A DNA stretch of 64,000 nucleotides from the NCBI GenBank assembly GCA_947503005.1, contig CANNCA010000008.1, forward strand, positions 62,001 to 126,000. The letters run 5' to 3'. The notes under the pieces were generated by a model that worked only from the letters and a program-made list of their open reading frames with translations, did no database searches and was not told the origin of the DNA. Shown here in pieces: positions 64 to 38,399 of this stretch (its first letter is position 1; each line of letters opens with the position of its first letter). The stretch is from an uncultured Flavobacteriaceae bacterium (GTDB taxonomy: Bacteria > Bacteroidota > Bacteroidia > Flavobacteriales > Flavobacteriaceae). The position numbers were made by a program, and so were the translations under genes.

Positions 64-106
64 GAAAGATATTTAATGAAACTACGCTAGTATATGACAG
101 TAGTCA
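64..106 (-). promoter_or_regulatory. TGAYN4RTCA operator and -7 box, leftward
   Basis: The palindrome TGACAGTAGTCA lies at 95-106. On the minus strand, 23 bp downstream of it, is TATCTTTC (71 to 64), one mismatch from TAnnTTTG. The spacing equals that of the other 13 sites. The rightward side has no box at this distance. It therefore predicts a leftward gene starting outside the window. Confidence 0.6.
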
Positions 107-179
107 GTCAACTTAATTAGTTTGGGGGTGATAACTAGTTGGTATCCAAACAGTTTGAAGCAATAAAAGTTAACTAGAC

Positions 180-222
180 TGATTTTGGTCATTTCATCAT
201 AGTTATTTCGATAGTATTTTCG
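180..222 (+). promoter_or_regulatory. TGAYN4RTCA operator and -7 box for the 342 operon
   Basis: Operator TGATTTTGGTCA at 180-191, a 23 bp spacer, then TATTTTCG at 215-222 (one mismatch to TAnnTTTG). It would drive the gene at 342 with a leader of roughly 115 nt. The rest of 1-341 holds no gene I can support. Confidence 0.65.
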
Positions 223-341
223 ACCTGTAATTACATTTCATAGGAAAGTTTGTCCCATTCTTTCCAGTTCTCCCATTTTACATCAACTAGTTTCAAACTG
301 GCAGCCTACTTAACCGTTGAATTTTTAATAAACAACCTGTC

Positions 342-2171
342 ATGAAATACAATACTATCGTTATCGGAGGAGGTCTAGCCGGATTAACTGCCGGAGCCAC
401 CCTGTCAAAATTCGGAAAGAAGGTTTTACTTTTGGAACAACACCACAAACCCGGTGGCTGTGCCACTACCTTCAAGCGAGGAGAGTTCATTATCGAAGTC
501 GGCCTGCATGAAATGAGCGGCATAGTGGAGAATGGCACGATTCCACAAATTTTCGAAATGCTCGATGTCGATCAAAAGGTCGACCTACTGAAAGTACCTG
601 AATTCTATGCTGTCTACTCAGATCGGGGAAAATTCGTGTTCCCACACGGCTATGATGCAGTGACCAAGGCACTGATAAACAAATACCCGGAGGATGCAAA
701 AGGCATCAAACGCTTCTTGAAGGTGCTCAAAGGAATTCGAAAGGAAGGGACCAATCAACCGCGTTCGTCATTGGTAAAGAAGCTCATCTATCCCTTGATG
801 CCCCTGCTCTATCCCAATCTTGTTGAAGCCAGTCGGCATACGGTCGGATCCTGGCTGGATAAGTACATCACGAATGAAAATGCAAAGATCGATTTGGTAG
901 CACACCTTGCCTATTGGGGTGATGACCCCTATACACTATCCATGTTCTATTATGGCATGCCCTTCTCCGGCTTCATCGAGAATGGCGGTCACTTCGTCAA
1001 AGGTGGTTCACAGCGGCTTTCTGACCATCTCGCCGCATATATTGAAAAACATGGAGGTACTGTTCTATTTGGGAAAAAGGCAGAAAAAATCGTCACTGAG
1101 AACGGCCGAGTGACGGGAGTCACCTTCCGGGATTATTTCAATAAAGACCTTGATCCTGTCACTGTTTCTTGTGACAATGCGGTAGCTAACTGCGCCATTC
1201 CCGTGGTACCTGCTATGCTGGACGAGCCCTTTGCCAGTTCGCTGAAAGAAAAGATCAGCGACAAAATCAATTCATGTTCTCTGCTCTGTATGTACCTCGG
1301 GTTCAATAAGGATGTGGAGGAATTCGGAGTGCAACATTATTCGAATGTCATCGAAGGCGAAGATGTGAGATCCTTGAAGGACGTCAAGCCCAACCACCAG
1401 GGCGATTGGAAAAAGCGAAGATTCATTTTTGTCGACTATGGTAAGGTAGATGCCCAATTGGCACCGCCAAACAAATCAGAAGGGGTAATCTGCACGGTCG
1501 ATTATGTTCAAGACTGGGAAAAATTGAACGATGAAGACTACAAGGCCAAGAAGGAAGAAGTGGCCCAGATACTCTTGGAACGATTGGAGAAACAGTTCCC
1601 TGGAATTCAGGATAGCATTCAATACTACGAGGTTTCTACATCAAAAACGATCCAACGATATACATCGAATCCCAGTGGATCGGTGTACGGTTACGCACAA
1701 ATCAAAGGACAAATCGGGGACATGCGATTCAGAAACAATTTCTTGATTCCCAATTTGTATTTCGCATCGGCATGGGCCTTTCCGGGAGGAGGATTCGAAG
1801 GAAGTATTACAGGGGGATTCTTAGCTGCATTACAGATGAATAAAGATAAAATCTGGTCAGTAGTTGATGATGAAAAAATCATTGACCAAAGAATCGTTCC
1901 ACTCGTTGAGCGTAAGGCAATCAATGAAAAGACAGTGGAATTGAGTTTTGAAAAACCAGCCGATGCTCTGTCCCCAAAAGGTAAGTACGCCTGTCTCAAT
2001 CTCATGAAACCGAAAGTAACCGAGTTGGATCTACCCTATCGCTGGCTTCCCATTGTTTCTTCTCCGGAAGAAGATAATATACGGTTTCATATTGAATTGG
2101 ATGGCAGCAGCTTTTCTAAAAGTTGTGAGTTAATAGGTAGTGGTGAAATGGCAACAATATATGGACCGTAG
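342..2171 (+). CDS. CrtI/retinol-saturase-like FAD oxidoreductase with C-terminal FNR-like FAD domain
   Basis: The N-terminus has the dinucleotide-binding signature GGGLAG (residues 9-14) and an acidic residue E32 ending the second strand, followed by PGGCATTF, as in phytoene desaturase/carotenoid isomerase and all-trans-retinol saturase relatives. The closing FAD motif (ASAWAFPGGGFEGSITGG) is near residue 490. About 110 further residues follow. They resemble the FAD-binding barrel of ferredoxin-NADP reductases (RWLPIVSSP, comparable to the RxYS motif) and stop before any NAD-binding half. Desaturase-type proteins are usually near 500 residues, so this is a fusion or a domain accretion. The substrate is unknown; a carotenoid or polyprenyl lipid is an inference. 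It is the first gene of an operon with an MDR reductase, an MBL hydrolase and a flavodoxin. Confidence 0.8.
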   Translation: MKYNTIVIGGGLAGLTAGATLSKFGKKVLLLEQHHKPGGCATTFKRGEFIIEVGLHEMSGIVENGTIPQIFEMLDVDQKVDLLKVPEFYAVYSDRGKFVFPHGYDAVTKALINKYPEDAKGIKRFLKVLKGIRKEGTNQPRSSLVKKLIYPLMPLLYPNLVEASRHTVGSWLDKYITNENAKIDLVAHLAYWGDDPYTLSMFYYGMPFSGFIENGGHFVKGGSQRLSDHLAAYIEKHGGTVLFGKKAEKIVTENGRVTGVTFRDYFNKDLDPVTVSCDNAVANCAIPVVPAMLDEPFASSLKEKISDKINSCSLLCMYLGFNKDVEEFGVQHYSNVIEGEDVRSLKDVKPNHQGDWKKRRFIFVDYGKVDAQLAPPNKSEGVICTVDYVQDWEKLNDEDYKAKKEEVAQILLERLEKQFPGIQDSIQYYEVSTSKTIQRYTSNPSGSVYGYAQIKGQIGDMRFRNNFLIPNLYFASAWAFPGGGFEGSITGGFLAALQMNKDKIWSVVDDEKIIDQRIVPLVERKAINEKTVELSFEKPADALSPKGKYACLNLMKPKVTELDLPYRWLPIVSSPEEDNIRFHIELDGSSFSKSCELIGSGEMATIYGP

Positions 2172-2195
2172 GTCTAATTCAAAATAGAAACTTAT

Positions 2196-5432: not shown

Positions 5433-5475
5433 TGATGTAGGTCATTTTCTTTGTTTTTTTTAGTTACTATGTTTG
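5433..5475 (+). promoter_or_regulatory. TGAYN4RTCA operator and perfect -7 box
   Basis: Operator TGATGTAGGTCA at 5433-5444, a 23 bp spacer, then TATGTTTG at 5468-5475, an exact match to TAnnTTTG. It drives the cytochrome c lipoprotein at 5529. Confidence 0.75.
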
Positions 5476-5528: not shown

Positions 5529-5996
5529 ATGTCTGGTAATAATAAAGATTTAGGCATCCCATCAATTTATTTAATGGCTTTCATCATATTATGTGTAGGC
5601 CTATTTATGAGTAGTTGCAATGAGCAAGCGCGTGGATTTGCATTACCTGAAGGAGACATTGAAAAAGGAAAAGAGACCTATAGGAGGTTGTCCTGTAATG
5701 AGTGTCATAGTATTACGGACATTGAATGGAAGGGAGGAAGTGATAGTCTCAAAATATATCTTGGTGGGGAAGTATCTTCACAGAAGTCTTATGGCGAACT
5801 AGTCACTTCAGTTATAAATCCTTCTCACAAGATTGCTCAGGGATACGATCAAAAAACCATTGCAAATGGAGGTATTTCGAAGATGAAGAATTACAATGAG
5901 GTTATGACCGTTCAAGAACTTGTTGATTTAGTTACTTTTCTTCAATCGGAATTTAAAGTAACTGCACCAACAACACATTACTATCCTTATTATTGA
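5529..5996 (+). CDS. Lipoprotein c-type cytochrome
   Basis: The N-terminus is a hydrophobic stretch ending in LFMSSC (Cys30), a lipoprotein signal. One haem-binding motif CNECH is at residues 56-60. A Met within GGISKMKNYNEVMT is the likely distal haem ligand, followed by the final helix VQELVDLVTFLQSEF, as in mono-haem class I cytochrome c. It would be an electron carrier tethered in the periplasm or outer membrane. It is monocistronic and has its own copy of the regional operator, so it likely responds to the same signal as the stress genes. The partner oxidase or reductase is not in the window. Confidence 0.85.
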   Translation: MSGNNKDLGIPSIYLMAFIILCVGLFMSSCNEQARGFALPEGDIEKGKETYRRLSCNECHSITDIEWKGGSDSLKIYLGGEVSSQKSYGELVTSVINPSHKIAQGYDQKTIANGGISKMKNYNEVMTVQELVDLVTFLQSEFKVTAPTTHYYPYY

Positions 5997-9614: not shown

Positions 9615-10091
9615 TTATAACTTTCTCTTAAAAATATACCGAGTAATAAATATGCCTTGGTCATCAGTTTCGCCAGCATCACTTTCTACGCCACTTGTAA
9701 CAAATAGTAAATCCCAACCTTCTGCTAACATTGTTGTGAGTTTTGAAGATATCACGGCATCATTTGCCGCTATATTTTGAAAGCGGATACCTCCAACATT
9801 ATAGAAGTTCAACAGTTTTGTTTCTTCAAAATCTTTTACACGAATATCTTTTCGTTTTGATTTGTTTCTAGTGTTATCTTCTTCCGTTTGTTCCGAAGAG
9901 AATTCTGTATAATCGCGCTCCGCTGTGGACGAAATAATTCTTGAGCGACCTAGCCCAAGAGGGACTATGGACTCTACACTGGTTATTACTTTGATTTCGA
10001 ACTCAGGCTGCGAAATCTCTAATTCGTTTTGTGCTTGTACACCAAAGATTGTAGCTATGACAAATAGGCCAGCTATTAGTATTCTTTTCAT
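9615..10091 (-). CDS. Exported protein of unknown function
   Basis: The 158-residue protein has a clear signal peptide (KRILIAGLFVIATIFGVQAQ) and a mature part rich in acidic residues. The C-terminal pattern KLTTMLAEGWDLLFVTSGVESD, with a closing ITRYIFKRKL, suggests a small beta-rich domain. I do not recognise a named family. It carries its own operator and -7 box at 10119-10161, so it probably belongs to the regional regulon. Confidence 0.65.
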   Translation of the reverse strand: MKRILIAGLFVIATIFGVQAQNELEISQPEFEIKVITSVESIVPLGLGRSRIISSTAERDYTEFSSEQTEEDNTRNKSKRKDIRVKDFEETKLLNFYNVGGIRFQNIAANDAVISSKLTTMLAEGWDLLFVTSGVESDAGETDDQGIFITRYIFKRKL

Positions 10092-10118: not shown

Positions 10119-10161
10119 TAAAGGTAAAGCTCTCAAAAACAGTATGATATGACCAAAATCA
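10119..10161 (-). promoter_or_regulatory. TGAYN4RTCA operator and -7 box, leftward
   Basis: Operator TGACCAAAATCA (plus-strand reading) at 10150-10161. On the minus strand, 23 bp further, is TACCTTTA (10126 to 10119), one mismatch to TAnnTTTG. The start codon at 10091 follows about 28 nt later. Confidence 0.7.
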
Positions 10162-24055: not shown

Positions 24056-24098
24056 CGAAGATCTTCGTTTTTATCATTTTAAAAGATGACATTGGTCA
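24056..24098 (-). promoter_or_regulatory. TGAYN4RTCA operator with weak -7 box, leftward
   Basis: Operator TGACATTGGTCA is at 24087-24098. On the minus strand, 23 bp further, is GATCTTCG (24063 to 24056), two mismatches to TAnnTTTG. The PPK2 start at 24036 follows about 20 nt later. The position fits the other sites although the box is poor. Confidence 0.55.
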
Positions 24099-24359: not shown

Positions 24360-24749
24360 TCATGAGAATGGAATACTATCCGTATTGGAATAGGAATAAT
24401 TATAGCCGCTATCGTATCTGATCGGATTACCAGACATAGCATCTTTCCTGTTCACTTTCCACTGTCCATTAGGTTGTTTAGTGGAATCTTTCTTTACCGT
24501 TTTCTGATTTTCCTTTCTTGGCCTGTACCTTCCGTAAAAAGCAATACCAAAAAGGTTGCGATTACATTTTCTAAGTTCAAGAAAGAATTCAGTTAATATA
24601 TTGGATTTATACCACTTCTTCTTATTGATTTCTTTTGGTGCTTGTTCGATTATTTCTTGGGGCGGTTCTGTTACTTCTACCGCGATTGGCATTGTTCTCT
24701 TCATGGTACCTTCGAATGTTATCCTCATTGTAATTTCGTATCCGTTCAT
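24360..24749 (-). CDS. Possible overlapping gene after the lipoprotein
   Basis: The 129-codon frame overlaps the 3' part of the lipoprotein gene by 128 bp in another frame and extends 262 bp beyond it. Its ATG is preceded by AAGGAGGT at good distance, a near-perfect Shine-Dalgarno sequence, unusual for Bacteroidota; the same bases encode LRRS in the lipoprotein. The product is basic and soluble (KKWYKSNILTEFF, YGRYRPRKENQK) and matches no family I know. It may be a real overlapping gene or a chance frame. Confidence 0.3.
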   Translation of the reverse strand: MNGYEITMRITFEGTMKRTMPIAVEVTEPPQEIIEQAPKEINKKKWYKSNILTEFFLELRKCNRNLFGIAFYGRYRPRKENQKTVKKDSTKQPNGQWKVNRKDAMSGNPIRYDSGYNYSYSNTDSIPFS

Positions 24750-25029
24750 ATCTTGACCTCCTTAAATCAATACTCCGATAGCGGGGCGGTAAAACAGTGC
24801 GTCGTACCCAAACACCTCCGTCCTGATACACATACACGCGCGCTGATAGGTCATAATAAATACTCAACTCGGGAAAATATACGTAACGCACAACTTCTAA
24901 TCGGTTCGGGTAGAACCAAGGTGGCGGGGGGTTACTAACCCTTGAAGTGATAACTACCGGGCCACAGCTAGACAATACCACTAGTGTGATTAATGATAGC
25001 ATAATTCGAAATGATTTTATCTTTTTCAT
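24622..25029 (-). CDS. Small lipoprotein with basic low-complexity tail
   Basis: The 135-residue protein has a lipoprotein signal (IMLSLITLVVLSSCGP), a proline-rich section (PPPPWFYPNRLEVVRYVYF), a middle beta-rich part (YYDLSARVYVYQDGGVWVRR) and an Asn/Arg-rich tail (NNANRGRSNRTAPRNN). I recognise this layout from flavobacterial lipoproteins of unknown function. It diverges from the gene at 25253. The shared palindrome at 25168 has a leftward box TTATTTTG at 23 bp (one mismatch), so it may also be in the regulon, with a leader of about 100 nt. Confidence 0.8.
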   Translation of the reverse strand: MKKIKSFRIMLSLITLVVLSSCGPVVITSRVSNPPPPWFYPNRLEVVRYVYFPELSIYYDLSARVYVYQDGGVWVRRTVLPPRYRSIDLRRSRYERIRNYNEDNIRRYHEENNANRGRSNRTAPRNNRTSTKRNQ

Positions 25030-25167: not shown

Positions 25168-25210
25168 TGATGTACATCATTTTGAGCACAATCAGATTTA
25201 AATAATTTTG
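25168..25210 (+). promoter_or_regulatory. TGAYN4RTCA operator and perfect -7 box, divergent
   Basis: The fully symmetric palindrome TGATGTACATCA lies at 25168-25179, with a 23 bp spacer and then TAATTTTG at 25203-25210 (exact). Leftward, TTATTTTG (25144 to 25137) is also at 23 bp, facing the lipoprotein gene. Confidence 0.75.
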
Positions 25211-25252: not shown

Positions 25253-25639
25253 ATGGAAAAAGAAATCATTTACAATACGAACCTCCATTTTGAGCATCAA
25301 CAATGGCGTTCTGAACTAGCTTTTTGGGAAGATGAACTAAAAACTTTTAAAAACCGATTGAGTGAACTTATAACCCGGTGGACGTCCAAGGAGGTACTTA
25401 CTGAGTTAGAACATTACCAAAACGAGTTCATTTTGCATGGTGGGGTCATTGAAGACATCACTGAAGCCATTGATGAACATGAAATTCGAATAGCTGGTCA
25501 AAGTCAAATGGGGATTGAAGCACTTGATACCCATATGGTCAAGAAACATTTAGATATACGCGAAAAGATGGAAATGCAACGTCAAATCTACGCAGAACTG
25601 AAAAAAAAGTTCTTTCGGTTTCTCAGCAAATATATGTAA
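25253..25639 (+). CDS. Small His-rich helical protein, unknown
   Basis: The 128-residue protein is almost entirely helical and charged. I prefer the ATG at 25253; a TTG 27 bp upstream is possible. His residues recur in HFEHQQW, LEHYQNEFILHGG, DEHEIRI and DTHMVKKH. The spacing on successive helices resembles a metal-binding four-helix bundle such as hemerythrin, but I cannot confirm that family. The gene has one of the best operator/-7 pairs, so it is probably strongly induced with the Usp and PPK2 genes. A role in sensing or storing metal or oxygen is only an inference. Confidence 0.65.
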   Translation: MEKEIIYNTNLHFEHQQWRSELAFWEDELKTFKNRLSELITRWTSKEVLTELEHYQNEFILHGGVIEDITEAIDEHEIRIAGQSQMGIEALDTHMVKKHLDIREKMEMQRQIYAELKKKFFRFLSKYM

Positions 25640-25752: not shown

Positions 25753-26130
25753 ATGCAGACCCTTTTGGTTATCGAGGATAATCGTACTATTCGCGAAAAC
25801 ACGGCTGAGTTTCTCGAAATGGAAGGCTATGTCGTACTCACCGCTACTAATGGAATTAATGGTTTTAAAAAAATCACCGATTTTAGGCCTGATTTAATCA
25901 TCTGTGATATACTTATGCCCGAAATGGGAGGCCTTGATTTGCTAGCTAAACTCGGATTACATAAGGGATTGAAAACTATACCTGTTATATTCTATAGTGC
26001 CAAAAGCGAAAAAAAGGATATTAAATCAGCTATGGATATGGGTGCCTACGACTACATTGTTAAACCCTCTGATTTGCAAGATCTTTTGGCATCGATCAGA
26101 GAATGTTTGGGAAACAGGAAATTTTCGTAG
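25753..26130 (+). CDS. Single-domain response regulator (CheY-like)
   Basis: The 125-residue receiver domain is alone. It has the acidic pair ED (residues 8-9), the phospho-acceptor D52 in LIICDILMPEMGG, SAKSE (Ser in place of the switch Thr) and the conserved Lys in YIVKPSDL. There is no output domain, so it would act by protein contact or as a phosphate sink. It closely resembles the receiver of the REC-CRP protein at 28321 (IEDNRTIRENTAEFLE versus IEDNKDVRENTADILE). The LOV kinase could therefore phosphorylate both. It lies 113 bp after the helical protein gene. Confidence 0.88.
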   Translation: MQTLLVIEDNRTIRENTAEFLEMEGYVVLTATNGINGFKKITDFRPDLIICDILMPEMGGLDLLAKLGLHKGLKTIPVIFYSAKSEKKDIKSAMDMGAYDYIVKPSDLQDLLASIRECLGNRKFS

Positions 26131-26299: not shown

Positions 26300-27070
26300 C
26301 TATTCCTCAGCATACCGTTTGTAAAAACTGGACTTCAAAAAACGTTGGGCATCTTCTAAAAGTTGTGCTACCTCCTGTACGGTCTTGTTACGTATTTTTG
26401 AGATTTCAGGTAACTCGAATTGGTGCTCTGTAAAAAGTTCGAACACTGTTCTCATGGGTGTCGGTAGTTGATGCAAGACCATTTCGGTATGTTTTTTAAC
26501 AGTCTCCTCACTAAGCTTTTTATCCAGTTTTGCCATTTGATCTGCTCTATTATCCTCTAAGAATATATTCTTTACAATATAATCGTGTTTTCGGTACGAG
26601 ATGTCATCTAGTTCTTCGAGCATCACCAAATCGCCATCGCCATCGGTACTGAATTTTTCTTCCATGGCATCCCACTCCTGTTTGGCGAAATCATCAATAT
26701 TTTCAAAAAAGATTGTATCGAATTCCTCTTCTACCAAGACATCTTCTAAAAGGGTGTCTGCTTTTTTGAACAACCATGGGTGTAGGTCTTTTCCATCTTC
26801 TATTTCATCAAAATGTTCATAGGCTTCGATAAAAAGCTGATCCGTAAAATCGTCAGGTTTGTATTTGCCCATAGGAATGGTTTTTTTTAGCAAAGCGGTA
26901 TTAAGCCTTTTGGCAACATAGCGTTTTACTTCAGGTAAGACCTTTAATAAGAGCGCATTGAACGCGGCTCTTTTATCCTCTTTTTTGAACAATGCCAAAT
27001 CGGTATATGCTTTTTGAACAAAAAGATGAAATGCTATTCTGCTTTCGTGGTATGCGGTTGTATGTTCCAT
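26300..27070 (-). CDS. Sigma-70-like protein, divergent
   Basis: The 256-residue protein has a layout like ECF sigma factors. An N-terminal region (FNALLLKVLPEVKRYVAKRLN and DDFTDQLFIEAYEHFDEI) recalls region 2. A very acidic insert follows (about 95-165). The C-terminal helix-turn-helix-like stretch (LPTPMRTVFELFTEHQFELPEISKIRNKTVQEVAQLLED) recalls region 4. The acidic linker is unusual. It may be a sigma factor, an anti-activator or a degenerate homologue. It has a palindrome at the standard distance, though the box GACTTTTA is weak. Confidence 0.6.
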   Translation of the reverse strand: MEHTTAYHESRIAFHLFVQKAYTDLALFKKEDKRAAFNALLLKVLPEVKRYVAKRLNTALLKKTIPMGKYKPDDFTDQLFIEAYEHFDEIEDGKDLHPWLFKKADTLLEDVLVEEEFDTIFFENIDDFAKQEWDAMEEKFSTDGDGDLVMLEELDDISYRKHDYIVKNIFLEDNRADQMAKLDKKLSEETVKKHTEMVLHQLPTPMRTVFELFTEHQFELPEISKIRNKTVQEVAQLLEDAQRFLKSSFYKRYAEE

Positions 27071-27091: not shown

Positions 27092-27134
27092 TAAAAGTCC
27101 GAACTAGTTTTTGAGGTTGAAATGATTTTGGTCA
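27092..27134 (-). promoter_or_regulatory. TGAYN4RTCA operator with weak -7 box, leftward
   Basis: Operator TGATTTTGGTCA is at 27123-27134. On the minus strand, 23 bp further, is GACTTTTA (27099 to 27092), two mismatches to TAnnTTTG. It faces the sigma-like gene at 27070. Confidence 0.55.
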
Positions 27135-27169: not shown

Positions 27170-27212
27170 TGATCTTCGTCATTGTTTACAATAATCCTTC
27201 AAAGTAATTTGG
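27170..27212 (+). promoter_or_regulatory. TGAYN4RTCA operator and -7 box
   Basis: Operator TGATCTTCGTCA is at 27170-27181, followed by a 23 bp spacer and TAATTTGG at 27205-27212 (one mismatch). It faces the YtxH operon at 27249. This intergenic region thus has two separate, oppositely used palindromes. Confidence 0.65.
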
Positions 27213-27248: not shown

Positions 27249-27578
27249 ATGCAAAACGATAGTGGAAGTGTAGTATTAGCCTTATTGACAGGAGCTGCAA
27301 TAGGTGCAGGAATCGGAATTCTCTATGCCCCGGAAGAGGGTAAGAAAACCAGAAAAAAAATCAGACGCAAGGTAGAAGATACCAGTCACGATATTTCGGA
27401 GCGTATTTCGCATGCCAAGGAGGAGTTGACCAAATCGGCGGCCGATCAGAAAGACAAATTTGACCGCAAGTTGGATGAGGCCATCTCGAACATGAGCTAT
27501 AAAGCAGATGATATTATCGCTACGCTAGAGCGCAAGTTGGAAGATTTAAAAAAGAAGAACGCCCAATTACAGAAATAA
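27249..27578 (+). CDS. YtxH-domain protein
   Basis: The 109-residue protein has a Gly/Ala-rich hydrophobic start (VVLALLTGAAIGAGIGILYAPEEGKKTRKKI), the signature of YtxH/general-stress proteins, then a long basic and acidic helix likely to be a coiled coil (to KLEDLKKKNAQLQK). YtxH proteins are induced by general stress in other bacteria; their function is unknown. It is the first of three genes spaced by 3-4 bp. Confidence 0.88.
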   Translation: MQNDSGSVVLALLTGAAIGAGIGILYAPEEGKKTRKKIRRKVEDTSHDISERISHAKEELTKSAADQKDKFDRKLDEAISNMSYKADDIIATLERKLEDLKKKNAQLQK

Positions 27579-27582
27579 GCCC

Positions 27583-27927
27583 ATGGCCTTAGAAGAACTC
27601 AAACAAGACCTCATGGAGGCTGATGCCGATGTGAGGTCTTATTTAGAAACTAGTGAAGAGTACTTGCAACTAAAAGTCTTCAAGATTTTAATGCATTCTG
27701 TAACCAATCTTTCACAAATCGCATTGGTCGGAACTCTTATAGTGGTGGCTTTGGTAATGCTATCACTTGGAGCTTCGCTGGCCATCAATGAACAGATGGA
27801 CAGTTTTTATATTGGATTTGTTATTGTGGGACTTGTTTATGTTCTCATTGCTGTACTATGCTATTTTTTCAGGGAGAAATTAGATAAGCCCTTACTACGA
27901 AAATTCTCCAAACACTATTTTGACTGA
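27583..27927 (+). CDS. Holin-X-like (phage_holin_3_6) membrane protein
   Basis: The 114-residue protein has an N-terminal amphipathic part (YLETSEEYLQLKVFKILMHS) and two membrane helices (IALVGTLIVVALVMLSLGASLAI and YIGFVIVGLVYVLIAVLCYFF). This is the layout of the Actinobacterial Holin-X/phage holin 3_6 family, which in Bacteroidota usually sits with YtxH genes and is not a phage holin. It probably modulates the envelope under stress. It is the middle gene of the three-gene operon. Confidence 0.8.
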   Translation: MALEELKQDLMEADADVRSYLETSEEYLQLKVFKILMHSVTNLSQIALVGTLIVVALVMLSLGASLAINEQMDSFYIGFVIVGLVYVLIAVLCYFFREKLDKPLLRKFSKHYFD

Positions 27928-28320: not shown

Positions 28321-29391
28321 CTATCGAACCTCCGCAACATGCAGCAACTCTTCCTTATCCAATAAAATGATTCTACGGGCTTTACCCATGGTAATCAGTC
28401 CTTCTTCCTTAAAATCAGATAGGGTTCTTATGGCTGTTTCCGTGGCTGTGCCTATGAGACCGGCAAAATCTTCGCGTGAAATATCGATTCCTTCATCCGG
28501 GGAATCTTTTATGATTCCTTTATCATGAAGATTTAATAAAGCTTTGGCCACCCTTTGCCGAACTGTGGAATACGCCATATCGACCATTTGTTGTTGTATT
28601 TCTGCCAGGTTGTTCGAAATAAGATCCATGAACTTATGGGAGACCTCTTTATTTTCATTGAGTAAATGGATAAAATCTGTTTTTGGTATGCCGTAAACTT
28701 CCGCTGCCTCCAACACGGTTGCCGATTCTAAATACGTTTCATTATGGCTCATTAGGGAAAGTTGACCCAAAAAATCCCCTGTTTTGTGAATACCAGTCAC
28801 GAATTCTTTCCCTATTTCGGTAGATTTATAGGTTTTTACAGTTCCACTTTCAATAAAATAAAGAGTGTGTGCGGCATCGCCCTCCATAAAAACGAAATCC
28901 TTTTTGTCGTAGGTTTTGGGGCGATAATCCCTTGAAATGCGTTCTAAATTGAGATAATCAAAGGCATCTTCAAAAAATTGGTTGATACCTTCGATGTTCT
29001 TGGAAAACTCCTTTCTTAGAAAATCATTTTTTTGTAAGCGACAAGCGACCGCTTCCAATAGTTCATGTTCTTCAAACGGCTTGGTGAGGTAATCATCGGC
29101 ACCAAGGTTCATGCCTTTACGGAAATCCGCTTTCTCTGACTTTGCGGTCAAAAAGATAAATGGAATACTGGCCATAGCTTTGTTTTTGCTCAATTCTTCC
29201 AGTACTCCGTAGCCATCCATTTGGGGCATCATCACATCGCAGATAATGATATCAGGATGGAATTGCTGAGTCTTTTCAACACCTTTTTTTCCATCTTCCG
29301 CCGTTTCCACCTCATAATCGGCGAGTTCCAAAATGTCCGCTGTATTCTCACGAACATCTTTGTTGTCTTCTATGATCAGTACTTTTTTCAT
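28321..29391 (-). CDS. REC-CRP fusion: response regulator with cNMP-like and Crp HTH domains
   Basis: The 356-residue regulator has a receiver domain (about 1-120; phospho-acceptor D52 in IIICDVMMPQMDG, FLTAKSE, YLTKPFEE), a linker, a cyclic-nucleotide-binding-like domain (about 150-265; FMEGDAAHTLYFIESGTV, TGDFLGQLSLMSHNE) and a Crp/Fnr winged helix (ISREDFAGLIGTATETAIRTL). In the recognition helix the Glu and Arg that FNR/CRP use to read TGA half-sites are kept (TETAIR). FNR's iron-sulfur cysteines are absent, so phosphorylation from the adjacent kinase is the likely input. An ATG at 29427 overlaps the kinase stop; I prefer 29391, which starts the conserved MKKVLIIEDN. Confidence 0.92.
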   Translation of the reverse strand: MKKVLIIEDNKDVRENTADILELADYEVETAEDGKKGVEKTQQFHPDIIICDVMMPQMDGYGVLEELSKNKAMASIPFIFLTAKSEKADFRKGMNLGADDYLTKPFEEHELLEAVACRLQKNDFLRKEFSKNIEGINQFFEDAFDYLNLERISRDYRPKTYDKKDFVFMEGDAAHTLYFIESGTVKTYKSTEIGKEFVTGIHKTGDFLGQLSLMSHNETYLESATVLEAAEVYGIPKTDFIHLLNENKEVSHKFMDLISNNLAEIQQQMVDMAYSTVRQRVAKALLNLHDKGIIKDSPDEGIDISREDFAGLIGTATETAIRTLSDFKEEGLITMGKARRIILLDKEELLHVAEVR

Positions 29392-29423
29392 TTGCTGTAT
29401 TTTAAATGTTTTTATAACATCTA

Positions 29424-32400
29424 TCATCTTCTACCCGCGACGGGAAAATCCACATAAAAAATCGCTCCTTTACCCAATTTGCTTTTAAAACTGATGGTAC
29501 CACCCATGAGTTCGGTATACTGTTTTACAATATGGAGGCCAAGGCCGGTACCTTGAATGTTGGTAGCATTCTTGGCACGAAAAAAACGTTCAAATAAATT
29601 GTCTTGCTCTTCAATCGGTATACCCATGCCCTCATCAGCAACCTGTAACGAGACCTTGTCTTCTGTAGCACTAATACCTACATATATTTTACTGTTTTCC
29701 TCGGAATACTTAATGGCATTCGAAATCAGATTAATCAGTATGTGGCGCATCAGTTTTGCATCTAAAAAAACGGAAACTGCAGGTTGTTCATGTTCCAAAA
29801 TAAGGGTTTGACCTTCTTTTTGGCTGGTCTCAATCTCATCTATAACAGATTGTGTAAGTTCTACCAAGTCAAAATCTGCTAGTTGTAATGCGGTTTTCCC
29901 TTCTTCAAGTTTGCTCAAGGAAAGGAAGTCGTTCAATATGACGACCAGGTTACGCACGTTCGATTTAATCTGCTTGATATACTTTTTTCGTTTCTCCTCT
30001 TTACCCGGTTCATTTTGCTTTCCTATCAAAATGGCAGAAGACAATATTGCACTTAAAGGCGTTCTGAACTCATGCGACGCCATAGAAATAAAGCGCGATT
30101 TCAATTCGTTAAGCTCCTGCTCAGTTTGCAAGGCCTTTAAGAGTTCTAGTTGCACCCGTTTTTGATCAGTAGTATTCGTGTGTACGAATAGTGCCCAGGT
30201 GATGTTTTTATCCGCATAAAGTGGTATGGAGTTTACAGAATAGTTTTGCTTACCGTAAGTCATCTCGAACGACAGGTGCTCGCCAGATAAGGTTTTTTGT
30301 ACATCCTGTTTTATTTGCTCCTTCAACTCTTTTGTTATGACAGGTAAATCATTGATACTTTTACCTTCATAATCATTTTTATCGAGTTTGAATTTCTGTA
30401 ATTCTTCCCCTTCCAAATACACCACTTCCATATTGGTGTTAAAGACGCTGATAACGCCTTTCGGAAAGTTTTGGGCAATTGCTGCAAATAGGGCTTGACT
30501 GGCCATGGCCCTATTTTCAGCAACTTTTGTGGTTTCAATCTGATTCTCAAGACTTTGGTTTGCCTCAACGAGTTTCTCAACAGTTGCCGTTATCTCATTG
30601 GTGCGTTGGGCCACTTTTTCCTCCAACTGCTCCTTACTTTTCCGTAACGCTTTATTAACGTTATGCCGCTCTATGGCCACACTGGTCAACTGTGTCATAT
30701 TGGCAACAATTTCCCGTTCACCTTTTGTGGGGGTGCGAACATCATCGCAGTAAATAGCAAATGTTCCTAAAACCTTTTTTTGAGAAGAGAATATGGGAGA
30801 TGACCAACACGATTTTATATCATGTTTCATGGCTAGTTGTTTATAGTCCGGACAAAGGGGTTCGTTGGCGATATCGCCTACAATGACCTCCTTTTTTATG
30901 TAGACAGCTTTACTGCAACAATTAATTTCATCCTCTATTTTAACTCCCACTATACCCTTACTGAAACTATCGGGAAGATTGGGAGCCGCCAATATATTTA
31001 ACGTACCTTTTTCTTCATCAAGCAATAAAATGGAGGCCATACAATTACTTAGATGTTTTTCGACCGTCTCAATGATTTTATGGGCAATTTCAGAAAGCGG
31101 TTGATCTTCCGTGATTAGTTCAAGTACTACCTGAATCTGGTCTTTGAGAAGTTCAGCCTTTTTTCGTTCAGTAATATCATTCTGAACGCCTATAAAATGG
31201 GTAAGTTCGCCATTTTTATCGTTAACGGGCGTAATGGTCAGTTCGTTCCAGAAAAGTGTACCATCTTTACGATAATTTCGAAGGATGACTTGGCAGGCCT
31301 GTTGTTTTTTTAGAGCGGTACGCATCAACGCTATGCCTTCTTGCTCCCGATCATTGTTTTGTAAAAAGCGACAGTTTTTTCCCAGCACTTCACTTTTGTT
31401 ATATCCAGTAATCTTAACAAAAGCATCATTACAGTAGATAATGGGGAAATCTGGTAATTGGGCATCTACGATAAGAATGCCATTGCCCGCCGCCTCCAAA
31501 GCATTATTTCTAATATCCAGTATTTTTTTTAGCGCAGTGCCTTTGCTGATATCACGTGCGACCGATAGAATTTTATCCTTTCCAAAAGGAACTGAGCGTG
31601 CTTCAAAATCAATCTGTCTTTTAATACCGGGCACCGTGACCTCAATTGCCAACATTTTTTTGGTCTCATGCACTTCTTTCAAAGCTTTCAATATTTTATC
31701 GGCCGCCGCAAGAGGTAGATATCGTTTTACATTTTTACCAATTAGTTTTTCCTTTGGGGCGATCAGAAGCGAGGGGTCAGATGCTTGAATCTCTAACGTT
31801 TTCCCATCTTTATCATGTATTAAAATAAGATCGGGTAGGACTCCCAGTATGGCTCTGTTTTTAGCTTCGCTTTCCCGCAATTCTTGTTCCGTCTTTCTAT
31901 TCTCGGTAACATCCCTTACAATGGATAATAACGCGTGGTTATTTAGCGGTACGGTTCGTGCCTCATAATCAAAACGGCCCGTGGGTAGATTCAAAGAATA
32001 TTCCGTTACCTGCAATTTTTGCGTTTTAATGGTAAGATCATGTGCCTTTTTAACGACTTTGTATACCTCTGGCGGAAGCACATCTTTCCTGTTTTTTCCA
32101 ATGAGCTCTTCTTGGGGCACCAGCAATTTTTCAGGTTCTGGTGTAAAGTAGTCTAAATAGTTGCCGTCATGATCCAATATGAACATCATATCTGGTAAGG
32201 CCTCCAATAAGGCATTGTTCTTGGCTTCATTTTGCCGGAGTTCTTCTTCGCCCTTTTTTTGTTCGGTAATGTCTGAAATAAAACCTTCGAGTGCTATCAA
32301 GCTTCCTTTTTTGTCGAATATGCCCTGTCCCAATTCTCTTAAATATTTGACCTTCCCTCGTTTGTCTCGGATACGGTAAGTCACCGTAAAAGGTTTTTTC

Positions 32401-33044
32401 TTGTCCAATGATTTTTGGGTGATTGACCAAATTGGTTCCTGATCTTCCTTAAAAGTTAAATCCGAAAAATGAACCTTGCCTTCTAAAAAATCCTTAGGTG
32501 GATGGCCCGTTACTTGCCGACAGCCTTCACTGATATATTCCATGGTCCAGTCACGATCATTTTTGCATCGATATACAATACCCTGTAGATTGCCGACCAA
32601 GGTGTTCAATTTTCGATTGCTTTCTGCTAGAAATGCGTTTGTTTCTTGCAAAGCGGTCATATCCATCATACGGCTGGTGGCATCCTTAACGAAGGCTACC
32701 GTAACCTGCTTGCCATTTAGAGTTGTGGGACTTAAGCTGATATCCAATGGGAATTCAGAACCTTTTTTTTTGAGGCCCCAAAGATCCAGTCCCAAACCCA
32801 TGGTGCGGGTTTCAGGTTTCTTTACATACTTTTTTCGATGGACACCATGCTTTTTCCTGAATTTCTCAGGAAGTAAGTTTTCAAGCTTAGTATCTTTTAG
32901 TTCTCCTTTGGAATAACCGAACATTCGTTCACAAGACCCATTGGCATCAAGAATTCGACCAGCGTCATCCACAACCAAAATGCCTTCGATGGAGGCGTCA
33001 AAAATGCTTTGAAGCAATGCGGTTTCTTTCTTTTGATTGTTCAT
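29424..33044 (-). CDS. Cytoplasmic multi-PAS histidine kinase with LOV and GAF domains
   Basis: The 1206-residue kinase has no membrane segments. Domains in order: PAS (about 8-125), PAS_3-type (145-262), two related PAS (270-385, 390-500), LOV (513-627), GAF (640-795), coiled coil, PAS (845-962), HisKA with H991 in SMASHEFRTPL, and HATPase (NLISNAIKYSEE, DEGMGIP, GTGLGLHIVKQY). The LOV domain has GKNCRFLQ with C558. N590, N600 and Q621 follow at the spacing of plant phototropin LOV2 (+32, +42, +63), so it should form a flavin-cysteinyl adduct in blue light. No receiver is attached; the REC-CRP gene follows immediately. Confidence 0.92.
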   Translation of the reverse strand: MNNQKKETALLQSIFDASIEGILVVDDAGRILDANGSCERMFGYSKGELKDTKLENLLPEKFRKKHGVHRKKYVKKPETRTMGLGLDLWGLKKKGSEFPLDISLSPTTLNGKQVTVAFVKDATSRMMDMTALQETNAFLAESNRKLNTLVGNLQGIVYRCKNDRDWTMEYISEGCRQVTGHPPKDFLEGKVHFSDLTFKEDQEPIWSITQKSLDKKKPFTVTYRIRDKRGKVKYLRELGQGIFDKKGSLIALEGFISDITEQKKGEEELRQNEAKNNALLEALPDMMFILDHDGNYLDYFTPEPEKLLVPQEELIGKNRKDVLPPEVYKVVKKAHDLTIKTQKLQVTEYSLNLPTGRFDYEARTVPLNNHALLSIVRDVTENRKTEQELRESEAKNRAILGVLPDLILIHDKDGKTLEIQASDPSLLIAPKEKLIGKNVKRYLPLAAADKILKALKEVHETKKMLAIEVTVPGIKRQIDFEARSVPFGKDKILSVARDISKGTALKKILDIRNNALEAAGNGILIVDAQLPDFPIIYCNDAFVKITGYNKSEVLGKNCRFLQNNDREQEGIALMRTALKKQQACQVILRNYRKDGTLFWNELTITPVNDKNGELTHFIGVQNDITERKKAELLKDQIQVVLELITEDQPLSEIAHKIIETVEKHLSNCMASILLLDEEKGTLNILAAPNLPDSFSKGIVGVKIEDEINCCSKAVYIKKEVIVGDIANEPLCPDYKQLAMKHDIKSCWSSPIFSSQKKVLGTFAIYCDDVRTPTKGEREIVANMTQLTSVAIERHNVNKALRKSKEQLEEKVAQRTNEITATVEKLVEANQSLENQIETTKVAENRAMASQALFAAIAQNFPKGVISVFNTNMEVVYLEGEELQKFKLDKNDYEGKSINDLPVITKELKEQIKQDVQKTLSGEHLSFEMTYGKQNYSVNSIPLYADKNITWALFVHTNTTDQKRVQLELLKALQTEQELNELKSRFISMASHEFRTPLSAILSSAILIGKQNEPGKEEKRKKYIKQIKSNVRNLVVILNDFLSLSKLEEGKTALQLADFDLVELTQSVIDEIETSQKEGQTLILEHEQPAVSVFLDAKLMRHILINLISNAIKYSEENSKIYVGISATEDKVSLQVADEGMGIPIEEQDNLFERFFRAKNATNIQGTGLGLHIVKQYTELMGGTISFKSKLGKGAIFYVDFPVAGRR

Positions 33045-33056: not shown

Positions 33057-34121
33057 TCACTGTAACTCAACGCTATCAGTATCCATTCGTCTAATTTTCG
33101 GAAAGGTATCTGGATAAGATTCCTGAATGAACCCTATCAGTTTTTCTCGTACACTGCAACGTAAATTCCAGCCAGCAGAAGCGTTTTTAGTACTAAAAGT
33201 TGCCCTGAGTTGCATTGTTCTTTCGTCGACTTCGGTCACCAAAAGATCAGCTACTCTTTTATCCCACAATTTCTCATTTCCCAAAATCTCAATAAATTTT
33301 TTTCGCAATTCGGCCACCGGAAAGCTATAATCCACATAGATGAAAACACTGTTAATGATATCCTTAGAATTGAAGCTCCAGTTCACAAAGGGGTGGTCAT
33401 TAAAATAGTTCAAAGGCAAAACCAACCGTCTCCAATCCCATGTCTTGACAACGACGTAGGTCAGGGTAACATCTTCGACGGTACCAAATTCACCTTCGAT
33501 TACCACTTGATCGTCGATTTTCAAGGGTTGCGTAAAGGCCATTTGAAACCCAGAGACTAAATTTGCGATTGACTTTTGAGCGGCTACCCCGACTATGATC
33601 CCTATAATTCCTGCAGATGTTAAAATGGTTTCGCCCAGTTCCCGGGCTGCTGGAATATTCCATAATATAGAAGCGATGGCCAAGGTTATAATAACCACCA
33701 TGGCCACACTTTTTATAAATCGCAGTTGGGTCAATACTTTTCGCTCCTTGGCTTTGTTGGGGCCATTTATCTGAAACTTTTCTTTTACTACAACTTCCAA
33801 TGCTTGTAATAAGGCCATCAACATCCAAGCAAAATTCACAATGAGAAGAGCTTCTATAAACTTATGACCCAATGAATTTAACTCGGAATAAAAAAGTAAG
33901 GAGGAATAAATAAGTAGCAACGGTATAAAAAACTTGGCAGGTCTTCTCAGGTATTTTAGCAATTGCTCTTTTAGGATCGAAGGTTTTTTTTGGTTATATA
34001 TTCTTAAGACAGAAAAAATTGCCCATCGAAGCGCAAGCCCCACAACTATGCATGCTAATAACACTGTTATGTGCGTCAACCAAGATTCTTCGCCAAAAAA
34101 TTCTGAGACAAGCGCGTCCAT
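33057..34121 (-). CDS. MscS-family mechanosensitive channel
   Basis: The 354-residue protein has four or five N-terminal membrane helices (THITVLLACIVVGLALRW onward), the pore-lining helix with TSAGIIGIIVGVAAQKSIANLVSGF, and the MscS beta domain (IDDQVVIEGEFGTVEDVTLTYVVVKTWDWRRLVLPLNYF). It releases solutes under osmotic downshock. The ATG at 34121 is chosen over 34154, which lies upstream of the inferred leftward -7 box TATTTTTA (34141 to 34134). The kinase gene follows after 12 bp, so channel, kinase and regulator form one operon. Confidence 0.9.
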   Translation of the reverse strand: MDALVSEFFGEESWLTHITVLLACIVVGLALRWAIFSVLRIYNQKKPSILKEQLLKYLRRPAKFFIPLLLIYSSLLFYSELNSLGHKFIEALLIVNFAWMLMALLQALEVVVKEKFQINGPNKAKERKVLTQLRFIKSVAMVVIITLAIASILWNIPAARELGETILTSAGIIGIIVGVAAQKSIANLVSGFQMAFTQPLKIDDQVVIEGEFGTVEDVTLTYVVVKTWDWRRLVLPLNYFNDHPFVNWSFNSKDIINSVFIYVDYSFPVAELRKKFIEILGNEKLWDKRVADLLVTEVDERTMQLRATFSTKNASAGWNLRCSVREKLIGFIQESYPDTFPKIRRMDTDSVELQ

Positions 34122-34133
34122 GAAATTTTTCTG

Positions 34134-34207
34134 TAAAAATAAGGTTGTGGGCAATGCTTAAATATGACCATGGTCATGTGATTGGACTAAAGGATGGAAT
34201 ACTTTTG
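34134..34207 (+). promoter_or_regulatory. Shared divergent TGAYN4RTCA operator (patatin / mscS-kinase-regulator)
   Basis: The perfect palindrome TGACCATGGTCA lies at 34165-34176. Rightward, TACTTTTG (exact) is at 34200-34207, 23 bp away, for the patatin gene. Leftward, TATTTTTA (34141 to 34134; one mismatch) is also 23 bp away, for mscS and hence the kinase and regulator genes. This predicts autoregulation. Confidence 0.75.
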
Positions 34208-34237
34208 ATGTACGTTAGTTTTACCAAAAAATCAAAT

Positions 34238-35068
34238 ATGAAAACAGGTTTGGTGCTTTCCGGGGGTGGGTTTCGCGGCATTGCCCACATTGGTGTCATA
34301 AAGGCATTGGAGGAGCATGATATTTATCCCGATTATATTGCAGGAACCAGCGCAGGGGCTATTGTCGGGGCGCTGTATGCAGGAGGATGCGGTTGGGAAG
34401 AAATACTGGACTTCTTGAAAACCGTACAGATTTTTAGCTTCAGTAACTATGCTTCAAAAAAACCAGGCTTCGTTGATCCAGAAAAGTTCTATGACCGCTT
34501 TTTGAAATTCTTTCCCAAAGATGATTTTGGGTCTTTGAAAACACCACTATATATAGCCACTACGAATATTTTGGATGGCAGTTTAAAAGTGTTTCACCGC
34601 GGAGAATTGATTAGACCTATTTTAGCCTCCGCCGCTTTCCCCGGTTTGTTCGCACCTGTTAAAATCGAGAAAGATTATTATGTAGATGGAGGAATTCTGA
34701 ACAATTTCCCTTCGGACCTTATCAAAATGTACTGCGATAAGATTATCGGTGTATATGTCAACCCATACGAGAAAGTGAAAATCGATGGACTTAAGCATTC
34801 CTATTCTGTATTGGAAAGAGCCTTCAAGATTATGATGGCAAAGGAATCACTTGCCAAATTCCAGGATTGTGATTTCGTCATTAACCCCAAAGAGCTTAGC
34901 AATTATAGTACGTTCGCTTTAAAAGATGTGGACGCAATTTTTAATTTTGGCTATCAAGCAACAGTTAAGGAACTAAGAAATACCGACCTTAAGAAATCAG
35001 AATCCGAATTGAAAGTTCAATTAGAGACGATGAAAGGTGCGCCTATAGCCGCGAGAGAAGGAGAATAA
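34238..35068 (+). CDS. Patatin-like phospholipase
   Basis: The 276-residue protein starts MKTGLVLSGGGFRGIAHIG, the oxyanion-hole motif, followed by the nucleophile elbow GTSAG and the catalytic Asp in YVDGGILNNFP. It is a cytoplasmic-type lipid acyl hydrolase with no signal peptide. The ATG at 34238 is chosen because upstream in-frame ATGs lie in or before the operator. It shares its operator with the mscS-kinase-regulator operon, so it probably remodels lipids under the same stress. It converges with the P-type ATPase gene with a 4 bp gap. Confidence 0.92.
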   Translation: MKTGLVLSGGGFRGIAHIGVIKALEEHDIYPDYIAGTSAGAIVGALYAGGCGWEEILDFLKTVQIFSFSNYASKKPGFVDPEKFYDRFLKFFPKDDFGSLKTPLYIATTNILDGSLKVFHRGELIRPILASAAFPGLFAPVKIEKDYYVDGGILNNFPSDLIKMYCDKIIGVYVNPYEKVKIDGLKHSYSVLERAFKIMMAKESLAKFQDCDFVINPKELSNYSTFALKDVDAIFNFGYQATVKELRNTDLKKSESELKVQLETMKGAPIAAREGE

Positions 35069-35072
35069 CAAT

Positions 35073-37742: not shown

Positions 37743-37772
37743 ATTGAAGAATAAGATAAATGCCCCCTAAAC

Positions 37773-37804
37773 AAAACTGATTAACATGGACGCATTTCAG
37801 TTTT
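37773..37804 (-). terminator. Weak hairpin between hsp20 and the ATPase gene
   Basis: Perfect 8 bp arms AAAACTGA and TCAGTTTT enclose 16 nt, followed on the minus strand by GTTT. It may attenuate or end the hsp20 transcript. The long loop makes this uncertain. Confidence 0.35.
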
Positions 37805-37847
37805 GGTAAGAGGGCATTTTGGAAAAACCAGAATTTTTAAATAATCT

Positions 37848-38312
37848 TTAAGACACTTCGATTACTTTTGGTGGACGCTTTTTGGCTTCCTCTTTTTTAG
37901 CAAGTTTAAAACTTAAGATACCATCATTGTATTTAGCCTTAATTTCTTCCTCTTTTACGCTGTCTGGCAATTGAAGTGAGCGTTCGAAAGAGTTGTAGCT
38001 AAATTCCCTCCGAGTGTAGTTATCTTCTTTTTCTTCCTCAGCGTGTTCTTTCTCAGCTGAGACATTGAGGCACCCGTCTTCAATCGTAATCTGAAAATCT
38101 TTCTTGCCAAAACCTGGAGCAGCAAGTTCAATCTCGAAATCATTATCGGTTTCCTTGATATTAAGGGCAGGCTCCATGGTCTTACCATTCCAGAATGGGT
38201 TTTTCATAAGACCTGTGTTCCAAAAACGATTATCGAAAAAATCATCCATATCGAAAAAATCTTGTGTAACGAGATTTCCAAAAGGTCTTCTTCTAAATTT
38301 TACTAGTGACAT
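37848..38312 (-). CDS. Small heat-shock protein, Hsp20 family
   Basis: The 154-residue alpha-crystallin-type chaperone has an Arg/Phe-rich N-terminus (SLVKFRRRPFGN, DDFFDNRFW), the alpha-crystallin domain (PALNIKETDNDFEIELAAPGF onward to AKYNDGILSFKL, with the A/G-x-x-x-N-G-x-L motif) and a C-terminal VIEVS (IxI-like). It binds unfolding proteins in the cytoplasm. I start it at the ATG at 38312 (MSLVKF is the usual flavobacterial start); another in-frame ATG is at 38336. The operator and box at 38357-38399 put it in the regional regulon. Confidence 0.93.
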   Translation of the reverse strand: MSLVKFRRRPFGNLVTQDFFDMDDFFDNRFWNTGLMKNPFWNGKTMEPALNIKETDNDFEIELAAPGFGKKDFQITIEDGCLNVSAEKEHAEEEKEDNYTRREFSYNSFERSLQLPDSVKEEEIKAKYNDGILSFKLAKKEEAKKRPPKVIEVS

Positions 38313-38356
38313 AATAGTATATTTTAAGTTAAACAATCATTTATTTTTCAATGGTT

Positions 38357-38399
38357 CGAAAGTACAACAGCGAATGAAGTTTGAAAATGACGTAGGTCA
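38357..38399 (-). promoter_or_regulatory. TGAYN4RTCA operator and -7 box for hsp20
   Basis: Operator TGACGTAGGTCA is at 38388-38399. On the minus strand, 23 bp further, is TACTTTCG (38364 to 38357), one mismatch to TAnnTTTG. It is the last site of this type I found in the window. Confidence 0.7.

Follow-up and report, generated by a model that had tools for sequence, protein, structure and literature searches.

Using the sequence of a 64-kb window of an uncultured Flavobacteriaceae bacterium (positions 62001-126000 of contig C8, in a genome of 4.58 Mb), we identified a recurrent promoter element in which the palindrome TGAYN4RTCA is followed, at a fixed distance of 23 bp, by a TAnnTTTG-like box. 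The combination of palindrome and box is real and strong, and a chance origin of the signal is ruled out by sequence shuffles, by a scan of alternative spacings, and by reversed controls in this genome and in 149 genomes of the family. The cluster of sites encloses the gene for REC-CRP1, in which a receiver domain is joined to a cNMP-binding-fold domain and a Crp-type helix-turn-helix (HTH) domain, next to the gene for a histidine kinase with a LOV domain. Sequence comparisons make it probable that this pair activates a survival island that is part of an FNR low-oxygen network.

The window contains 17 TGAYN4RTCA palindromes, compared to 4.57 +/- 1.98 expected from 100 shuffles, the largest of which gave 9. 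A preliminary description of this DNA listed 14 of them, and we recovered all 14, as well as the quality of their boxes at spacing 23: five exact, seven with one mismatch, and two (sites 24087 and 27123) with two mismatches. The three additional palindromes, at 1111, 24294 and 37373, have no box with fewer than three mismatches at this spacing, and those at 1111 and 37373 fall within long open reading frames (ORFs). When all 17 palindromes were considered in both directions, spacing 23 yielded 5 exact boxes, 14 with at most one mismatch and 18 with at most two, whereas 39 alternative spacings yielded on average 0.03, 0.28 and 2.3 boxes, respectively (maxima of 1, 2 and 8). A box with up to two mismatches is encountered at 6.1% of random positions; therefore, the boxes of sites 24087 and 27123 are weak individually, and each of them ends about 20 nt upstream of an ATG. 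The boxes were also said to face start codons, and 13 of the 14 sites indeed have an ORF of 80 aa or longer whose start ATG lies 0-292 nt past the box; the ORF faced by site 95 is located outside the window, 62 nt from the box.

We then define an exact composite as TGAYN4RTCA-N23-TAnnTTTG and use the reversed composite as a control. The whole-genome scan proposed in the preliminary description found 26 exact composites and no reversed ones. When any spacing from 13 to 33 bp was allowed, 26 of the 43 genomic matches have a spacing of exactly 23, any other spacing is represented by at most 3 matches, and the reversed control yields 6. The composite is not as common inside genes as it is upstream of them: just one of the 26 exact composites overlaps an ORF of 150 aa or longer with an ATG start, and a motif scattered through genes is thus rejected. 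The overlapping composite is that of the patatin gene (L024), where an upstream in-frame ATG extends the ORF. A script placed an ORF of 80 aa or longer, with an ATG start, within 300 bp ahead of 23 of the 26; on inspection, L013 and L024 face one as well. The exact composites are clustered, with 11 of the 26 in C8:37560-96207 and 5 in C2:857575-889324, so that the genome has two islands and a set of scattered sites. Outside the window, exact composites are found before hemN, between fnr and a CcoI-type ATPase gene (facing fnr), and at a locus encoding a cytochrome, a fasciclin and NosZ. The 14 sites exist as described; a self-contained regulon of 14 sites is rejected, because exact composites are spread genome-wide and include the fnr-cbb3, hemN and nosZ loci. 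With the FNR-like gene next to the cbb3 operon, and with hemN and nosZ among the members, the core of the network looks like a low-oxygen one.

Within this genome, the preference for spacing 23 is seen in the C8 and C2 islands as well as in the window, and the enrichment extends to relatives. In the 149 family genomes there are 1170 composites versus 21 reversed ones, and 134 of these genomes have at least one composite. Of 118 genomes drawn across the phylum, 51 have the composite: 2-26 per genome in 11 genomes of the family, 6 and 10 in two genomes of the same order, 0-9 in 16 genomes of the same class, and 0-3 in the remaining 89. The islands of relatives were taken as 32-40 kb around REC-CRP1 in 10 family genomes and in the loci L047, L048, L050 and L051; some of these relatives may belong to the same species. 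Across these 14 neighbourhoods, the 185 palindromes have 67, 154 and 193 boxes (0, up to 1 and up to 2 mismatches) at spacing 23, compared to means of 0.28, 3.7 and 27.7 at other spacings. A broader set of 80 REC-CRP loci has 49 composites versus none in the reversed orientation.

Measured from the first base of the box, the centre of the palindrome lies 29.5 bp upstream. The TAnnTTTG -7 box of Flavobacterium psychrophilum spans positions -12 to -5 (PMC9723704), and with this placement the palindrome centre would fall at -41.5, the class II position. The proposal of a class II CRP/FNR-type arrangement on a flavobacterial -7 box is therefore supported by the fixed 23-bp spacing and by the position of the F. 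psychrophilum box, and the island promoters would be activated from this position. Glu and Arg in a Crp-type recognition helix go with the palindrome TGA-N6-TCA. Here, this palindrome occurs together with Crp-type HTH domains bearing the helix ATE[TS]xIR, as would be expected of a class II activator of the CRP/FNR type. In 200 island pairs of a site and a box with at most one mismatch, the palindrome is preceded by A or C (T in 1%) and followed by T in 94%, with A at +12 in none, and its fourth base is C in 56%. These flank preferences give the motif MTGAYN4RTCAT ([A/C]TGAYN4RTCAT). The island sites do not match the Anr/FNR box TTGATN4ATCAA, known as the Anr box in Pseudomonas (PMC6588701), because the flanks differ.

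REC-CRP1 (28321-29427, minus strand; Pfam Response_reg, cNMP_binding and HTH_Crp_2) is the proposed regulator of the island sites. The phospho-acceptor motif CD[IV]MMP is present in all 20 REC-CRP proteins that were read. The gene of the LOV histidine kinase (29424-33044, minus strand; several PAS domains, GAF, HisKA and HATPase in Pfam, LOV matches in PDB) encodes 1206 aa; it lies upstream of the REC-CRP1 gene, with which it shares 4 bp. It is preceded, at a gap of 12 bp, by the gene of an MscS-type channel (33057-34154, minus strand; Pfam MS_channel_2nd), the first gene of what is presumably an MscS-LOV kinase-REC-CRP1 operon. The palindrome 34165-34176 serves both directions: its box TATTTTTA (34134-34176, minus strand, one mismatch) faces the regulator operon, and its box TACTTTTG (34165-34207, plus strand, exact) faces the gene of a patatin-like phospholipase (34145-35068, plus strand; Pfam), a proposed target. 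This position, together with an upstream site in 5 of 10 relatives of the kinase gene, suggests autoregulation of the REC-CRP1 operon.

MscS with its kinase and regulator had been named among the regulon members; the LOV domain of the kinase, unmentioned at that stage, was found here. It comprises residues ~516-626 and has the motif GKNCRFLQ with the photoactive Cys. Its PDB matches include the blue-light photoreceptor 2pr5 (E 6.5e-31) and the phototropin 8qi8 (E 9.6e-31); the top PDB hits, at 1e-42, are LOV-FixL chimeras, the score of which includes the kinase part. A GxNCRFLQ motif in a LOV-type PAS domain combined with HisKA/HATPase points to a LOV photoreceptor kinase, and a light input can be inferred with good reason. 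The genome has no other close LOV match; in a second, weak one (L181, 26% identity), a quick scan did not reveal a LOV motif. The Cys is retained in 9 of the 10 REC-CRP1 family relatives (G061 reads GKNCNFLQ, and G108 reads GLNCRILQ), and the domain is also present in the named loci L047, L049, L050 and L051. Arenibacter and Pelagihabitans are among the culturable relatives in which REC-CRP1 and a LOV kinase occur together. In the REC-CRP loci, a strict LOV regex matches 4 of the 6 that are closest to REC-CRP1 and none of the 74 others, many of which are short.

For phylogenetic footprinting, best hits covering at least 50% of the query were taken as relatives, and a site was counted as kept if its box has at most one mismatch; under this definition, Usp (universal stress protein) paralogues are counted in. 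The locus L052 was added for footprinting and for the subtype counts below, bringing the neighbourhoods to 15. The comparison of upstream regions of relatives, another proposal of the preliminary description, showed a kept site in 59 of the 76 best hits for targets of the C8 island and in 30 of the 132 for other genes. The site is kept upstream of YtxH in 9/9 relatives, Hsp20 in 12/13, patatin in 9/11, the small protein 25253-25639 in 7/8, the WG-repeat protein in 4/5, Usp 15974-16882 in 4/6, Usp 16936-17868 in 3/4, ORF 24622-25029 in 2/4, ORF 26300-27070 in 4/8, and MscS in 1/2. Pta (1/4) and AckA (0/5 with a site) do not look like targets in the REC-CRP1 neighbourhoods. The inclusion of DUF2267 is weak: its box has two mismatches, none of 3 relatives keeps the site, and it is rejected as a firm member. 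The targets of sites 95, 180, 5433 (cytochrome c) and 10150 have no relatives in the examined neighbourhoods and thus stand outside the footprinting.

In the vicinity of REC-CRP1, sites show a preference for a TGACCTAGGTCA-like subtype, which differs from the TGATAAATATCA-like FNR type; this is a tendency, not a rule. With boxes of at most one mismatch in the island sets and exact boxes in the outside sets, C is the fifth base in 22/44 half-sites of the C8 island versus 2/20 elsewhere in the genome (p 0.002), and in 4/24 of the C2 island. In the REC-CRP1 neighbourhoods of relatives, the corresponding counts are 87/274 versus 4/70 outside them (p 1.7e-6), the outside sites being taken from three of the ten REC-CRP1 relatives (G119, G037 and G129). 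When only exact boxes are counted, C is found in 11/22 for the C8 island and 40/136 for the relatives' REC-CRP1 neighbourhoods. It is found in 7/146 in eight FNR-only genomes; this set and the six-genome REC-CRP2 set were chosen among 16 genomes with matches listed, of which G119 was used elsewhere and G093 was omitted. Of the 11 REC-CRP1 genomes, 6 have the strict C..G subtype with an exact box, compared to 11 of the other 138 (p 3e-4), and in all six one such site lies within ~15 kb of REC-CRP1. The FNR-type subtype TGAYANNTRTCA with an exact box is present in 119 of the 149 genomes.

These observations are consistent with the following scheme. A dimer of a CRP/FNR-family activator would bind [A/C]TGAYN4RTCAT at -41.5, directly against RNA polymerase positioned on the TAnnTTTG box. 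Up to three paralogues may read this operator, namely, a Cys-bearing FNR-like protein, REC-CRP1 and REC-CRP2, and the cluster in the window would be mainly the REC-CRP1 regulon. Blue light, in addition to signals perceived through the other PAS/GAF domains, would alter the activity of the kinase; the kinase would phosphorylate REC-CRP1, and REC-CRP1 would bind the TGACCTAGGTCA-like subtype. It would then activate Usp, Hsp20, patatin, YtxH and its own operon, and probably cytochrome c and PPK2; we infer activation, rather than repression, by REC-CRP1. The earlier proposal of a REC-CRP protein as the regulator is supported for the cluster, with the proviso that at least three paralogues with a similar helix could share the box. 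Genomic association supports the regulator assignment well.

Several observations weigh against this reading. Neither G063 nor the adjacent kinase of L048 (Pricia) has the LOV domain, and a search next to REC-CRP1 in L052 and L053 found no kinase; light is therefore no universal input. In the REC-CRP1 neighbourhoods, the targets of the C2 island footprint less well, with 17/30 versus 14/51 for other genes, and the comparisons among relatives are without phylogenetic correction. The four cases without LOV or without an adjacent kinase favor an alternative in which REC-CRP1 regulates the island in response to redox, oxygen or energy state via the other PAS/GAF domains, and LOV is vestigial or serves as a redox sensor. 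The same is true of the REC-CRP2 kinase, which has two PAS domains and matched no LOV structure of the PDB at E 1e-10, and of the targets, which resemble the microoxia set of Bradyrhizobium (PMC6515984) and the Anr targets of Pseudomonas (PMC6588701). Retention of the photoactive Cys in nine of ten family relatives is unexpected for a vestigial domain, and we regard this alternative as rather unlikely. It shares REC-CRP1 with the preferred explanation, so that the odds of the two overlap and the probabilities of all the explanations do not sum to one.

The distribution of regulators bears on a second alternative, that the FNR-like protein alone drives all sites, including those in the window, with REC-CRP1 and its kinase being neighbours or targets. 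A composite lies upstream of the FNR-like gene, which adjoins genes for the CcoI-type ATPase, CcoNO, a CcoP-like protein (under the model cut-off) and CcoG; the protein scores best against the Fnr model, yet under its cut-off. Its residues Cys 9, 12, 58 and 111, candidate Fe-S ligands, are invariant in all 30 closest relatives read, with a spacing unlike that of E. coli FNR. REC-CRP1 (E <= 4e-123) is absent from 138 of the 149 family genomes, and the composite is present in 134; REC-CRP1 thus cannot explain the motif as a whole, which counts against the preferred reading. The presence of the regulator varies within the genus, as the congeneric genome G050 has no REC-CRP1 match, with 5 composites compared to 26 in the present genome. 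Also against the preferred reading, five of the 11 REC-CRP1 genomes lack strict C..G sites, 11 genomes without REC-CRP1 have them, and in G018 and G007 the C..G site lies near another REC-CRP. An FNR-family hit, defined as any match at E <= 1e-3 with weak ones included, is found in 129 of the 149. This frequency, the four invariant Cys, the 119 genomes that have TGAYANNTRTCA, and the cbb3, hemN and nosZ members fit control by FNR alone. The regulator classes, compiled by hand from search results and without phylogenetic correction, differ in composites per genome: 17.9 with REC-CRP1 (n = 11), 10.6 with another REC-CRP (55), 6.05 with an FNR-family hit only (63), and 0.55 with neither (20), or 4.23, 3.10, 1.82 and 0.27 per Mb. 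The occurrence of composites in the FNR-only genomes also fits control by FNR alone; however, the counts climb further with REC-CRP and REC-CRP1, the island sites prefer a different inner half-site, REC-CRP1 lies within its site cluster in an operon that carries a site, and only 10 of the 30 fnr genes have a composite upstream. We therefore consider control of the whole set by FNR alone unlikely, and more so than the redox-input alternative.

A third candidate is another CRP-family protein of the genome. The cNMP-binding domain PF00027 has 15 matches, 12 of them above the cut-off, and the exact composites L003, L004 and L010 (C2:82239, C2:92010 and C6:63884) start at, or a few bases past, the stop codons of other CRP-family genes and face the next gene. 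However, the recognition helix ATE[TS]xIR is common, by eye, to REC-CRP1, REC-CRP2 (in the C2 island) and the FNR-like protein (by regex, it is found in 14 of 16 REC-CRP1-type proteins, with G119 and G054 unmatched, and in 4 of 4 REC-CRP2-type ones), whereas the helices of the remaining 12, also judged by eye, differ; binding of the box by one of them is quite improbable. Finally, the AT-rich site flanks and the association of sites with promoters might suggest a by-product of promoter composition with no operator function, but this has a negligible probability given the fixed spacing, the contrasts with reversed controls (26 versus 0 and 1170 versus 21), and the complete absence of composites from 15 of the 20 genomes without an FNR-family or REC-CRP hit.

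Returning to the LOV kinase/REC-CRP1 pair, a broader interpretation can be put forward, which we hold tentatively and at somewhat below even odds: blue light, through the LOV kinase, and oxygen, through the FNR-like protein, might converge, within a clade of bacteria resembling Flavobacteriaceae, on one promoter architecture via paralogous CRP/FNR DNA-binding domains with slightly diverged half-sites, and the two signals together might control functions in survival (Usp, Hsp20, patatin, energy metabolism). The receiver-CRP fusion might then be an innovation, widespread in Bacteroidota, through which different kinases gain access to an FNR-type box. The results provide a large bacterial family with a defined, testable global regulon at base-pair resolution and with named candidate regulators, in a group in which low-oxygen and stress regulation is little described in searchable open-access papers. 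They point to light as an input to a CRP/FNR-type regulon, conveyed by a LOV kinase to a response regulator with a fused CRP module, and the tendency of FNR-type and REC-CRP1-type sites to differ bears on how paralogous regulators divide one operator.

The FixLJ-FixK2 system also passes a two-component input to a CRP/FNR-type activator, with FixJ and FixK being separate proteins and the sensor a haem PAS protein. In Bradyrhizobium, the likeness extends to Usp, Hsp20 and cbb3 targets: the microoxia-induced genes include several universal stress proteins, Hsp20, the cbb3 oxidase and a 1-phosphofructokinase-family kinase (PMC6515984). The difference is that here the receiver and CRP domains are in one protein and the kinase has LOV; because its domains are fused, REC-CRP1 is no member of the FixLJ-FixK system. 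The DosR dormancy regulon depends on a NarL-type response regulator, whereas REC-CRP1 has no NarL-type HTH among its Pfam matches. FNR/Anr regulons are similar in the CRP/FNR box before cbb3, hemN, denitrification and ackA-type targets and in the four conserved Cys of the regulator (PMC6588701), and composites are indeed found here before hemN, facing fnr, and at the nosZ locus; the differences are the box MTGAYN4RTCAT, the Cys positions 9/12/58/111, and the sharing of the box by REC-CRP paralogues. LOV proteins are wired to stress regulons in Bacillus, where blue light acts through YtvA, and in Caulobacter, where the stress effect of LovK-LovR seems to be light-independent (PMC4844311); here, the output would be a CRP/FNR-type factor at housekeeping promoters, with no sigma-factor pathway. 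Other CRP/FNR regulators of Bacteroidetes are HcpR, with the HcpR2 motif GTAACnnnnGTTAC and a regulon consisting mostly of hcp in Bacteroides (PMC1274295), and the MalR-type regulators predicted in a Flavobacteriales genome (PMC8510549); as far as the cited texts describe them, neither matches the present regulon. The statement that no flavobacterial regulon of this composition is known was not contradicted among the matches listed in the open-access literature, subscription journals being mostly outside it. Among the matches listed there, we found no description of REC-CRP fusions, and no paper in that literature combining an FNR motif with Flavobacterium and cbb3.

The remaining composites of the window are as follows, each with one box mismatch unless specified otherwise. 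Composite TGACTACTGTCA / TATCTTTC (64-106, minus strand) faces the ORF C8:61294-62001 beyond the window start, and TGATTTTGGTCA / TATTTTCG (180-222, plus) is located 119 nt upstream of an amine oxidoreductase-like ORF (342-2171). The exact box of TGATGTAGGTCA / TATGTTTG (5433-5475, plus) faces a cytochrome c-like gene (5529-5996), the Pfam match of which is weak and under the cut-off. An uncharacterised ORF (9615-10091) is faced by TGATTTTGGTCA / TACCTTTA (10119-10161, minus). Two further composites with exact boxes are TGATCGAAATCA / TATCTTTG (15258-15300, minus), facing the WG-repeat protein (14570-15235), and TGACCTGTGTCA / TATCTTTG (15968-16010, plus), facing Usp 15974-16882 (ATG at 16034); the other Usp (16936-17868) is faced by TGACCATGGTCA / TAAGTTTC (17856-17898, minus). 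Composite TGACCTATATCA / TATCTTTA (21356-21398, plus) lies 292 nt upstream of a DUF4136 ORF (21691-22251). Two PPK2 genes (22362-24036, minus; Pfam PPK2) follow, 19 nt downstream of the weak composite TGACCAATGTCA / GATCTTCG (24056-24098, minus, two mismatches). The palindrome at 25168 has boxes on both sides: the exact one of TGATGTACATCA / TAATTTTG (25168-25210, plus) faces a small uncharacterised protein (25253-25639, plus), and TTATTTTG, on the opposite side, faces 24622-25029. The weak composite TGACCAAAATCA / GACTTTTA (27092-27134, minus, two mismatches) faces ORF 26300-27070, and TGATCTTCGTCA / TAATTTGG (27170-27212, plus) faces the YtxH gene, which is followed by a gene for a small protein with a weak holin-superfamily match (27249-27927 for both, plus; profile matches). 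Composite TGACCTACGTCA / TACTTTCG (38357-38399, minus) faces Hsp20 (37848-38336, minus; Pfam HSP20).

A stand-alone receiver-domain protein is encoded at 25753-26130, near REC-CRP1, and similar proteins are present in the G056 and G108 islands. The exact composite L019 (C8:52655-52697), of the C..G subtype, is not followed within 300 bp by an ORF of 80 aa or longer with an ATG start and possibly serves a small RNA or a short gene. The second island (C2:853001-891000; L044 and L045) has 12 palindromes with boxes of at most one mismatch and encodes REC-CRP2, its PAS kinase, and thioredoxin, ferritin-like and PPDK-like proteins, as well as several Usp-like proteins, judged from the sequence start. 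The small protein 25253-25639 has no Pfam match and belongs to a family of ~130-160 aa recurring in both islands, with four copies (25253-25639 in the window; L044:4649-5074, L044:19025-19474 and L044:3993-4463, in the part of the C2 island covered by L044), each behind a site with a box of at most one mismatch. There was no Pfam match in the two members scanned. In the islands examined, the family has 23 members, 12 of them with a site, and an alignment of 15 sequences shows W18 and H76 to be invariant.

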